From contig NZ_JAHBRX010000002.1 in NCBI RefSeq assembly GCF_018398335.1, forward strand, positions 248,001-312,000: a stretch of 64,000 bases of DNA, written 5' to 3'. Under the pieces are notes generated by a model. The model was not told the origin of the DNA. It did not search any database and worked only from the letters and a program-made list of their open reading frames with translations. The position numbers and the translations under genes were made by a program. The stretch comes from Chelatococcus sp. HY11. Lineage in GTDB: Bacteria; Pseudomonadota; Alphaproteobacteria; Rhizobiales; Beijerinckiaceae. Positions 5,321-42,540 of the stretch are shown piece by piece (within the stretch, counting starts at the first letter, position 1; the number at the start of each line of letters is the position of its first letter).

Positions 5321-6403
5321 ATGCCTGTCCTCCAGCTCGAGAGTATCGTCAAACGCTACGGCCCCGTCACAGCGCTGGGGCCTGTCGATATCGAGGTCCA
5401 CAAAGGTGAACTCCTCACGCTGCTTGGCCCCTCCGGCTGTGGCAAGACGACGACGCTCCATATCATCGCCGGGCTGACCCAGCCGACCGAGGGACGACTT
5501 CTGCTGGCGGGACGCGACATCACGCGTCTCGCGCCGCCCTACCGCGACATCGGTCTCGTCTTCCAGAATTATGCGCTTTTCCCCCATAGGACGATCGCTG
5601 AGAACATCGCCTTCGGGCTGCGCATGCGCAAGGTGCCGAAGCCCGACATCACGCGCCGTGTGCGGACGATGCTCGACGTCGTCGGCCTGCCGAATGTCGA
5701 GGATCGCTATCCGCATCAACTGTCCGGAGGTCAGCGTCAGCGCGTTGCCCTGGCCCGCGCCCTGGTGATCGAGCCGCCGATCCTGCTTCTCGATGAGCCG
5801 TTGTCGAATCTCGACGCCCTGCTGCGAAAGCGGATGCGCCTCGAACTCCGCGATATCCAGCAGCGCCTCGGTATGACGACGGTGTTCGTGACCCACGACC
5901 AGGACGAGGCCTTCGAAATGTCTGACCGCGTCATCCTGATGAATGCGGGCGGCATCGAGCAGGTTGGGTCGCCTGAGGAGCTCTACGATGCGCCCTCGAC
6001 GCGGTTCGCGGCTGAGTTCATCGGCGAGGCGAGTCTCATGGAAGGTGAGGTGGCTGGCATCGACGGTGACCAAGTCATGGTCGCCGTCGATGAATTGCAT
6101 GTCGCCGCTAGGGCGGTGCGGCCTGGCCTCAAGAGGGGCGGCAGGGCGGTGCTGATGATCCGCCCTGAGCGGATCGAACTGGCCGATCCGGACACGCCGG
6201 GCGCGATTGCGCTGAAAGTTGCGAAGCGGGTGTTCCAGGGCGATCGCATCCTGTTTGATCTGCGCACCGGGCGGGGGCAGTCCCTCCATTGCTCCGCTCC
6301 CAATCTCGAGCGCTTTCGGGCAATCGAGACGGGCGTTCCCGTCCATGCGAGCCTGAACGAGTGCCGTGCCATCCCGGTCGAGGCGCCAGGAAATCCGGCC
6401 TGA
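5321..6403 (+). CDS. ABC transporter ATPase, PotA-like
   Basis: The 360-residue protein has Walker A GPSGCGKT at residues 36-43, a Q-loop in VFQNYALFPH, the signature LSGGQRQRVALARAL, Walker B LLLDEPLSNLDA and an H-loop VTHDQDEA. The extra 120 C-terminal residues form the regulatory OB (TOBE) domain seen in spermidine/putrescine and iron-type importers. The ATG at 5321 is preferred: GGAGA lies 10 bases ahead, while an upstream TTG at 5300 has no such site. Its TGA stop is the first base group of the 17-bp repeat ladder that leads to the permease gene. Confidence 0.92.
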   Translation: MPVLQLESIVKRYGPVTALGPVDIEVHKGELLTLLGPSGCGKTTTLHIIAGLTQPTEGRLLLAGRDITRLAPPYRDIGLVFQNYALFPHRTIAENIAFGLRMRKVPKPDITRRVRTMLDVVGLPNVEDRYPHQLSGGQRQRVALARALVIEPPILLLDEPLSNLDALLRKRMRLELRDIQQRLGMTTVFVTHDQDEAFEMSDRVILMNAGGIEQVGSPEELYDAPSTRFAAEFIGEASLMEGEVAGIDGDQVMVAVDELHVAARAVRPGLKRGGRAVLMIRPERIELADPDTPGAIALKVAKRVFQGDRILFDLRTGRGQSLHCSAPNLERFRAIETGVPVHASLNECRAIPVEAPGNPA

Positions 6404-6499
6404 GATGAAATCCGGCCTGAAATGAAATTGGATCTGACAGCAAGCCCAACCTGACATGAAACCGAGCCTGACATGACACGGAGCCTGACATGATCCGCG
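6398..6499 (+). repeat. Six 17-bp tandem repeats linking ATPase stop to permease start
   Basis: The consensus is gCCTGAcATGAaanccg. Copies start at 6398, 6415, 6432, 6449, 6466 and 6483. The first holds the TGA of the ATPase gene and the last the ATG of the permease gene. All copies but the third keep both TGA and ATG one base apart. Each ATG opens a short frame: copies 1, 4 and 5 encode six residues, and each of these stops at a TGA that overlaps the next ATG (21 bases minus 4 gives the 17-bp period). Ribosomes could thus pass from gene to gene by repeated stop and restart. Confidence 0.9.
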
Positions 6500-38514: not shown

Positions 38515-39627
38515 ATGCCCGCTCGCTGCTCGTTGTTCCGGTTCGTTGCCTTTGCTTGCCCGCTTCTGACCGTCGTCGGCATCGCCAATCTTCCGAATGC
38601 GGCCCTCGCCGATCCGCGCGATATCGCGGTTGAGGTTCGCAATCTGAGCGAGCCCGTCCGGTGCGCCGAGAAGGACAATGTCTATCTCCCGTTCCAGGCG
38701 GCGGAGAAGGGGCCGATGCCGCGCAGTTTCCGGATCGAGGTGCTGCACCCTGCCTATATCGGCACACTGGCGGCCGACCGGCAGGCCCCTGACTGGGCGC
38801 AGTGCGACATGACTGCGGATCCTGTCTTCCTGGGGCACCCCCGCGAGACGACGCTGATCGATAACGACAGGTTTCGGCTGATTGCCTATTCCTATCCGTC
38901 CCTCTGGCGGCCAAGCACCGTCCCCGTGGTGATCGGCGACAAGCGCGAGGAGGGCGTCCATCTTCTTCAGCTCTGGGCGAAGGAGAAGAACGGCCAGTCT
39001 GAAGAAGTGGTGGTCGTCTATCCGCAGGATGGCTATTGGCGCGGCCGGCCCTTAAGCCCGAAGCACCTCGGCAACAGTGCCTATGGCACGTCTTTCCTCG
39101 TCGGTCCGGTGGAGACCGAAGGCAGGCCGATCGTTGCCCTGAAGACCCTGTCTTTTGACCCCGCAACAGGCGATTTCCGCATGGAGTTCGCGCGCGGCGG
39201 ATCAGGTGCGCTTGCCATCATCGCGCTGGATCAGGACAGGCTGGTGCTGTCCGTCAATTTTGACGGTGCCGTGCCGGACGACCACCCCTTCGCCGCGCTG
39301 CGTTCTATGTATGTCACCGAGACGAATGCCGACGCGGCTCGTGTCGCCTGGGTTCATCAGGACGGCAAGGGCTGGGGCGAGGAACAGGTCATGACCTTCA
39401 AGCGGGCCGCGACGCCTGAGTTCTGGCTCGGCCGGACGCTACCCTCGCGCCATAACACCAGCGCGCCCGACGTCGCCTTGAGCCAGTTTCGGGCGGCCAC
39501 GGTGGAGGCGGCCACGCCGAAGCCAACCCTGACCTCGGGCGAGCCCGCGCGTTCGGACAAGGACGCGCCGAAAGCCGAGGCACCGAAGGCCATGGTACCG
39601 AAGGCTTTGGCACCGATCACCCGCTGA
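38515..39627 (+). CDS. Secreted protein of unknown function
   Basis: I do not recognise this 370-residue protein. It has a Sec signal peptide (LFRFVAFACPLLTVVGIANLPNAALA, cleavage before DPRD). The mature part appears all-beta, with VVVVYPQDGYWRG and RLVLSVNFDGAVPDDHPF. The last 30 residues are low-complexity with repeated APKA/VPKA units (from KDAPKAEAPKA). GAAAGGGG lies just ahead of ATG 38515. It is 46 bases before the GH3 glucosidase gene, so both may be cotranscribed and act in the periplasm. Confidence 0.72.
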   Translation: MPARCSLFRFVAFACPLLTVVGIANLPNAALADPRDIAVEVRNLSEPVRCAEKDNVYLPFQAAEKGPMPRSFRIEVLHPAYIGTLAADRQAPDWAQCDMTADPVFLGHPRETTLIDNDRFRLIAYSYPSLWRPSTVPVVIGDKREEGVHLLQLWAKEKNGQSEEVVVVYPQDGYWRGRPLSPKHLGNSAYGTSFLVGPVETEGRPIVALKTLSFDPATGDFRMEFARGGSGALAIIALDQDRLVLSVNFDGAVPDDHPFAALRSMYVTETNADAARVAWVHQDGKGWGEEQVMTFKRAATPEFWLGRTLPSRHNTSAPDVALSQFRAATVEAATPKPTLTSGEPARSDKDAPKAEAPKAMVPKALAPITR

Positions 39628-41986: not shown

Positions 41987-42532
41987 CTATCGCCAGGATG
42001 CGGCTGACTTCGGCAGCCGGCCTTCGGGATCGATCACCGTAAGCTTTGGACCTTCCCGGACGTTCCAGCGCCAGAGTGCGACACAACTGCCGCCGGGCGA
42101 CATGAAGGACGGATAGATCACGCCGTCGAACCCGTCCGCCACCAGGCGCTGATGTAACTGATGTGTCGCGGGGATTTCTCCCCGGTCGAGCATGGCGCGC
42201 CACTGGCATTTATGGATCGTCTCGTCGACGTGATTGGCAGCGAGGCCGGTGGCGTCGCAAAGGTCGGCCAACCTCGCACCGCTGAGACTGATCTGCGCGA
42301 TCGTCGCGGGGTGCTGGACAAAGCCCTGATTGTATTCCGCCCAGGCGGTCGACAGCTCACGCGCGGCATAGAGAGCCGGCACGCCGACCGGATTCCAACG
42401 GCCGCCAAATTGCGCCGCGCCTTCTCCAGACAACGGCGCGTGAGCCCAGCGGGGCACGTAGGCACGCCATAGAATGAGCACGGTATCCGTCGCCGGTGCG
42501 GACCTGTCAGGCATAGACCCCTGATCAGGCAT
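41987..42532 (-). CDS. RES-domain toxin (NAD-depleting type)
   Basis: The 181-residue protein has the RES pattern: LWRAY near residue 21 with the conserved Arg, GGRWNPVGVPALYAARELSTAWAEY around 43-67 with the conserved Glu/Tyr, and DGVIYPSF later. Studied RES toxins phosphorolyse NAD+ and stop growth. The start at 42532 overlaps the end of the antitoxin gene; a second ATG 18 bases further on (42514) arises from an 18-bp duplication. It completes a RES-Xre toxin-antitoxin module. Confidence 0.88.
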   Translation of the reverse strand: MPDQGSMPDRSAPATDTVLILWRAYVPRWAHAPLSGEGAAQFGGRWNPVGVPALYAARELSTAWAEYNQGFVQHPATIAQISLSGARLADLCDATGLAANHVDETIHKCQWRAMLDRGEIPATHQLHQRLVADGFDGVIYPSFMSPGGSCVALWRWNVREGPKLTVIDPEGRLPKSAASWR

Positions 42533-42540
42533 AGACCCCG
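42505..42540 (-). repeat. 18-bp tandem duplication over antitoxin stop and toxin start
   Basis: TGTCAGGCATAGACCCCT (42505-42522) and GATCAGGCATAGACCCCG (42523-42540) share 15 consecutive bases. On the coding strand each unit reads GGGGTCTATGCCTGA, holding ATG and TGA, so the toxin has two ATG choices in one frame and the antitoxin stop is next to both. Confidence 0.85.

Follow-up and report, generated by a model that had tools for sequence, protein, structure and literature searches.

A ladder of overlapping, very short reading frames occupies the junction between the ATPase gene and the first permease gene of an ABC transporter operon (binding protein, ATPase and two permeases) in the window, the 64,000-nucleotide stretch of DNA analysed here (G000:C2:248001-312000, from a 6.9-Mb genome). 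The ladder consists of six 17-bp units between the two genes, and we regard as evenly poised the proposal that it is a product of slippage whose 3k+2 period keeps the ATPase and the permease coupled by termination-reinitiation. As a repeat the array exceeds chance, and it probably originated by DNA slippage. The stop-start architecture recurs between unrelated gene pairs in the family.

The repeat array and its chain of reading frames

The operon genes and the elements of the junction are collected in Table 1, in which the ATPase start at 5321 is the call of a simple gene finder. By direct reading of the sequence the six-unit array spans 6390-6491, and Tandem Repeats Finder places period-17 arrays at 6390-6428 (score 71) and at 6398-6493 (5.6 copies, score 78). 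An earlier note on this DNA had described six 17-bp units with their frames and 4-nt overlaps, and direct reading, Tandem Repeats Finder and a chain script bear out that description in every detail. In the phase used there (start 6398) TGA-N-ATG stands in five of the six units, and the copy called damaged is unit 3, with AGCA. The arithmetic of the period also holds: because the unit is 17 bp long (3k+2) and carries ATGA, new copies are 6-codon frames that close on the next ATG, and the three perfect copies of the sibling genome G002 are alike in this respect.

Table 1. Genes, repeat units, mini-ORFs and Shine-Dalgarno-like motif at the junction (window positions)
Feature	Start	End	Strand	Remarks
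Periplasmic binding protein (SBP_bac_8; top NCBIfam PotD, far under cut-off)	4125	5201	+	
ABC transporter ATPase (PotA/PhnT-like, under NCBIfam cut-offs)	5321	6403	+	Stop TGA 6401-6403
Repeat unit 1, GAAATCCGGCCTGAGAT	6390	6406	+	ATPase stop within; sequence reading, Tandem Repeats Finder
Mini-ORF a (MKSGLK*)	6405	6425	+	Opens +1 nt past ATPase stop
Repeat unit 2, GAAATCCGGCCTGAAAT	6407	6423	+	Sequence reading, Tandem Repeats Finder
Mini-ORF b (MKLDLTASPT*)	6422	6454	+	4-nt overlap with a; TGA 1 nt ahead of ATG 6456
Repeat unit 3, GAAATTGGATCTGACAG	6424	6440	+	AGCA in place of ATGA of other copies; sequence reading, Tandem Repeats Finder
Repeat unit 4, CAAGCCCAACCTGACAT	6441	6457	+	Sequence reading, Tandem Repeats Finder
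Mini-ORF c (MKPSLT*)	6456	6476	+	
Repeat unit 5, GAAACCGAGCCTGACAT	6458	6474	+	Sequence reading, Tandem Repeats Finder
Mini-ORF d (MTRSLT*)	6473	6493	+	4-nt overlaps with c and with permease start
Repeat unit 6, GACACGGAGCCTGACAT	6475	6491	+	Same letters in G002; sequence reading, comparison with G002
GGAG, Shine-Dalgarno-like	6480	6483	+	6 nt 5' of permease ATG; duplex energy -5.8 kcal/mol
ABC permease 1 (PotB-like, under NCBIfam cut-off)	6490	7347	+	
ABC permease 2 (PotC-like, under NCBIfam cut-off)	7337	8215	+	

The chain script, which joins each stop to a start within -4 to +5 nt, reaches the permease ATG at 6490 from the ATPase stop by steps of +1, -4, +1, -4 and -4 nt. The stop-start spacing expected of a pair coupled by termination-reinitiation is present at every step in the window and in G002. 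Unit 3 lacks ATGA, yet the frame across it closes 1 nt before the next ATG. When the spacing was altered in the script, a period of 15 or 18 broke the window chain and a period of 16 did not, because the unit has a second TGA. Given the repeat and the number of substitutions, the intact chain at the window locus is not beyond chance: with substitutions placed at random it survived in 31% of simulations for G000, the window genome, and in 52% for G002. Selection at the window locus was dropped as a local argument on these figures. Retention of ATGA relative to unit divergence at this locus alone is neutral and not significant. The permease start has the strongest Shine-Dalgarno pairing among the five ladder starts (-5.8 versus +0.3 to -4.3 kcal/mol), and direct initiation at the permease is possible because the last copy has its own GGAG. 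Elsewhere in the window a 15-bp array (CCGAAGGCCATGGCA, 3.3 units, 39568-39616) lies within a predicted coding region.

A sibling species and distant orthologs

Four genomes represent the genus in the collection, and a close copy of the gene pair is found only in G002. Its junction holds three units that form a perfect ladder including the ATPase stop, with four ATGA overlaps 17 bp apart and all steps at -4. The array in the window is unlikely to be an artefact of assembly, since G002 carries these units in the same position. Alignment of the junction with a relative, which the earlier note had proposed, gives six units against three, a difference of exactly 51 bp, or whole units; near-identical head-to-tail units whose number varies by whole units between relatives are what is looked for in a slipped-strand array, and both are found here. 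Units 5 and 6 of the window match units 2 and 3 of G002 with 2 and 0 differences of 17 (by eye). The first ATGA of G002 is AGGA in the window, where the ATPase runs four codons longer, to the TGA of unit 1, and that TGA is one base ahead of the next ATG. Repeats kept in relatives without the stop-start overlap would, by the earlier note, have spoken against a relay; in G002, the sole sibling with the gene pair, the overlap is kept along with the repeats.

In distant orthologs, at 63-74% identity over the permease, no repeat is visible. None was seen at seven ortholog junctions (L032-L038, from 17 related loci), one of which has a different gene order. Microvirga antarctica (L032; Methylobacteriaceae, Hyphomicrobiales per NCBI) has a single ATGA overlap at the junction, and G111 of the same family has the same sequence; a metagenome-assembled genome (L034) likewise has a single ATGA overlap, and Mesorhizobium microcysteis (L033) has TGAGATG. 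Protein searches for further orthologs, with E up to 1e-80 across 397 family genomes and up to 1e-60 across 397 order genomes, returned, beyond the window genome, G002, G111 and the 40%-identical G558. Because the distant orthologs have an ATGA or TGAGATG junction and no repeat, the array looks young and built on an ancestral overlap.

Tandem arrays in the replicon

Tandem Repeats Finder was run over 1.6 Mb of the same replicon and gave 26 arrays of 13-18 bp in noncoding DNA or at junctions, distributed over periods of 13 (five), 14 (two), 15 (four), 16 (five), 17 (eight) and 18 bp (two), together with 46 coding arrays, 29 of them with a 15-bp or 21-bp period. A Markov-3 simulation of the 1.6-Mb scan gave 16 arrays with periods scattered over 15-30. 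Six of the eight period-17 noncoding arrays are not ATGA ladders and two are ATGA-phased. Because noncoding arrays are many, 17 bp is their commonest period and most of these are not start-phased, the 17-bp period of the ladder needs no translational explanation by itself, and the earlier view that the period is special to a relay is not supported.

Array turnover between G000 and G002 was followed at ten arrays, among them the present locus, for which both flanks could be located in G002. An array at C2:221622 has 3.6 units in G000 and about 1.6 in G002; an 18-bp array at the junction of two minus-strand genes (C2:290503-290539, window 42503-42539) has two units against one; and a 15-bp array at a stop-start junction (C2:378728-378760) has two against three near G002:C2:1605457. 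The array at C2:75133 is the same in both genomes, and the remaining compared arrays no longer align as repeats. Slippage-like turnover is general in the replicon, because copy number differs by whole units at several arrays. The earlier suggestion that copy number sets the ATPase:permease ratio is not supported, copy number shifting at neighbouring arrays too. With its 3k period the array at C2:378728 gives in-frame alternative starts and not a ladder. Around C2:75133, 1.2 kb is 96.8% identical to G002 compared with 84-90% at the other array regions, perhaps through recent transfer or constraint.

Ladders in the genus, the family and viral contigs

Across the four genomes of the genus, three ATGA motifs at 17-bp spacing gave 13 matches and the reversed pattern none; spacings of 16, 14 and 15 bp gave 3, 12 and 54 matches, with 0, 0 and 1 in the reversed controls. 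The period-15 matches mostly resemble coding sequence, and three arrays (L572-L574) were left out of the counts. In G000 and G003 a 17-bp ladder lies directly 5' of the start of what we take, from its sequence, to be an ArgE/M20-like gene, and another lies directly 5' of the gene at G000:C2:519924. In G001 three 17-bp arrays are not ahead of a co-directional gene, and one match reflects an ordinary overlap that happens to have the right spacing. A 14-bp ladder 5' of what is presumably a glutathione-synthetase-like gene has three steps in G000 and two in G002 and G003. At the 14-bp ladder loci of three species (L562, L563 and L564, near 1433-1500) the upstream 50 nt are nearly identical too.

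The family scan sought four intact ATGA motifs, and decayed ladders are invisible to its counts. It gave 17 matches at period 17 (13 of 397 genomes; reversed control 11 matches in 6 genomes), 14 at period 16 (9 of 342 genomes; control 0) and 45 at period 14 (31 of 342 genomes; control 64 matches in 11 genomes). By matches, start-phased arrays are not clearly commoner than the control at 14 and 17 bp, since the counts are 45 versus 64 and 17 versus 11; by genomes they are commoner, at 31 versus 11 for period 14 and 13 versus 6 for period 17. Nor is the scarcity of period 16 special to ATGA, because the reversed tetramer also has periods 17 and 14 and none of 16. In G120 (9.1 Mb) there are 21 matches to the reversed control AGTA x4 at period 14, which suggests long unrelated 14-bp arrays.

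Merging left 14 arrays at period 17, 10 at period 16 and 38 at period 14; the period-14 matches with no locus of their own were second matches in an array or were retrieved separately. The period-14 and period-16 sets each contain a palindromic array that is counted on both strands. An array was assigned to a junction where its first TGA closes one ORF and its last ATG opens another, both at least 100 codons long, at least one side being backed by a simple hexamer gene finder. This holds for 6/14, 0/10 and 9/38 arrays at periods 17, 16 and 14 (5, 0 and 6 with the gene finder on both sides). Compared by Fisher tests with the period-16 sample of 10 arrays, periods 14 and 17 together gave 15/52 versus 0/10 for junctions (p = 0.10), 22/52 versus 0/10 for an upstream ORF of at least 100 codons closed by the first TGA (p = 0.010) and 20/52 versus 0/10 for an upstream ORF by the gene finder (p = 0.023); for the downstream start the figures are 26/52 versus 3/10 (p = 0.31). 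These values and those given below are uncorrected over several tests. Requiring the last ATG to open the gene can miss other layouts, because L571, a period-16 array of three copies where a gene ends, fails to fit: by our own reading a 300-codon ORF closes at copy 1 and the next frame opens at copy 2.

The junction pairs, named here from their translations, are presumably mtnA-mtnB (L189), NitT-type permease-ATPase (L198), DUF58-vWA (L199), dehydrogenase-AEC transporter (L200), two response regulators (L312), sensor kinase-response regulator (L317), RsbT-SpoIIE-like (L306) and others. Long frames arise spuriously in GC-rich DNA, which makes L295 and L303 doubtful. At L195 (G413:C1:4780308-4780362, minus strand) three identical 17-bp units stand between genes that we take to be dppB-like and dppC-like. 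The L195 ladder is seemingly a recent case.

In IMG/VR contigs, scanned for tandem-like arrays with ORFs of at least 60 codons at periods 11, 14, 17 and 20 versus 13, 16 and 19, junction arrays among the matches listed numbered 6/411 versus 1/267 (p = 0.25, a trend); upstream ORFs numbered 20 versus 7 (p = 0.16) and downstream ORFs 41 versus 32 (p = 0.45), again among the matches listed. Two of the period-14 cases prove to be repeats of period 7. Family and viral data pooled gave p = 0.04 (uncorrected; the viral part among the matches listed). Viral contigs were rejected as independent proof of a modulo-3 rule, the junction arrays among the matches listed being too few and the difference not significant.

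Unit identity and Shine-Dalgarno strength

Units of junction ladders are less alike than those of arrays at no gene boundary (median identity 0.69 versus 0.87, p = 0.030) and than those of all other arrays (p = 0.008), both one-sided and uncorrected; with period 16 left out the values are p = 0.067 and 0.016, respectively. Ascertainment is equal across arrays because all were found by intact ATGA. If ATGA is retained as the unit drifts, lower identity at junction ladders would be expected.

In 13 junction ladders the mean Shine-Dalgarno energy is -4.1 kcal/mol at the last start, -5.1 at the first and -3.7 at interior starts. Baseline starts average -4.9 (n=120) and, for -4 overlaps, -6.4 kcal/mol (n=11) in the family loci, and -6.7 (n=94, -4 overlap) and -6.0 kcal/mol (n=594 others) in the window replicon. 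The last ATG of ladders is marginally weaker (p = 0.036 versus the 11 overlap starts, 0.15 versus the 120 starts), a contrast inflated by the gene finder behind the baseline starts, which favours Shine-Dalgarno sequences. A weak last-ATG Shine-Dalgarno was set aside as a ladder signature, given the marginal p and the inflated baseline.

Discussion

The anatomy of the ladder, known here from sequence alone, is a variation on termination-reinitiation coupling. In the proposed mechanism slippage in an ancestor shared by G000 and G002 would have duplicated an ordinary ATGA overlap of ATPase and permease in tandem. At each step a terminating ribosome would then meet a start -4 to +1 nt away and could in this way arrive at the permease, with a fraction lost at every step; the GGAG of the last copy would permit direct permease initiation as well. 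The ladder would be kept mainly as the coupling-preserving form of the array and not for a tuned copy number. We infer all three elements of this scheme, namely slippage as the mutation, hand-over of ribosomes and purifying selection on ATGA. According to excerpts of PMC10666635, reinitiation in E. coli and Haloferax reporters requires short stop-start distances, 14 nt from stop to start in E. coli costs 40-80% of reinitiation and 38 nt (almost) all, and the final 15 nt of the upstream gene are enough for reinitiation. Because reinitiation falls with distance in these published excerpts, an insertion of 51 or 102 nt would be expected to uncouple the two genes if the steps were not short; since each ladder step is short, an insertion of 51-102 nt need not break coupling.

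It is quite plausible, although we lean somewhat against it, that the ladder is purely a by-product. On this view the junction was copied by slippage, the mini-ORFs follow from the arithmetic as side effects, and translation of the permease starts independently at its own GGAG. The predominance of period 17 among noncoding arrays that are mostly not ladders speaks for this account, as do the simulated chances of an intact chain, the -5.8 kcal/mol pairing ahead of the permease ATG and the missing ATGA of unit 3. A rough supply estimate (177 four-base overlaps of about 14 nt each, at the density of noncoding arrays) also predicts about 0.4 arrays of this kind per 1.6 Mb, and one is seen. What a pure by-product does not anticipate is that 3k+2 arrays recur at stop-to-start junctions with lower unit identity there, and that where ATGA is lost the frame still ends 1 nt before the next ATG.

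That selection acts on copy number to set the ATPase:permease ratio by stepwise loss appears improbable. The sibling species do differ, with six units against three, but arrays without a ladder change copy number too, and by our own reading some genes in the other ladder pairs have no evident need for a set ratio. Still less probable is an RNA-structure or protein-binding element such as a hairpin, terminator, promoter or known RNA family. Such an element might explain why the 3' half of the unit (CCTGACATGA) is less variable than the 5' half; against it, the array folds no better than shuffles (z = 0.51), has no Rfam match at the gathering threshold and contains no sigma-70-like site, and the sole terminator-like site lies within the ATPase gene. 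The RNA-element reading was rejected on the folding score and on the lack of an Rfam family and a sigma-70-like promoter. A broader form of the coupling proposal, in which ladders would be a recurrent undescribed intergenic class in this family of the Hyphomicrobiales, with 3k+2 ATGA duplication giving relay chains of frames of 5-6 codons, ATGA under selection and a copy number that evolves easily and so adjusts the subunit ratio, seems doubtful to us.

The ladder shares with variable-number tandem repeats and slipped-strand arrays a short unit whose copy number differs between relatives. Known variable-number repeats alter promoter spacing or coding frame; unlike them, the ladder repeat renews both a stop and a start with every copy. 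ATGA/TGATG termination-reinitiation coupling, as excerpts of PMC6728339 and PMC10666635 describe it, likewise has -4 or +1 nt junctions between co-directional frames, and the pair here codes for subunits of one transporter; there a single overlap is involved, and the ladder is a tandem chain of 3-6 units, mostly 6-codon frames. The short frame ORF27 of E. coli iraD, in the part of PMC5574718 available, also has a stop that overlaps the start of the regulated gene and drives its translation; it is a single 27-residue ORF with its own Shine-Dalgarno sequence in a 5' leader and is repressed by CsrA, whereas the ladder is repeated and lies between two genes. Coupling by single short ORFs is thus described, as far as excerpts of PMC5574718 and of a review (PMC12548453) go. 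The earlier note knew of no described case of a tandem stop-start chain, and a full-text search of open-licence literature, which omits most subscription papers, found none in the text it covers.

The natural three- and six-unit arrays at one gene pair in two sibling species make repeated reinitiation on very short operon frames directly testable, and independent ladders at other operon junctions add further test cases. If the relay works, simple slippage can widen an intergenic gap without uncoupling the genes, and annotation of intergenic repeats should check the period modulo 3. If it fails, ladders would be a clean case of a striking pattern produced by slippage and codon arithmetic.
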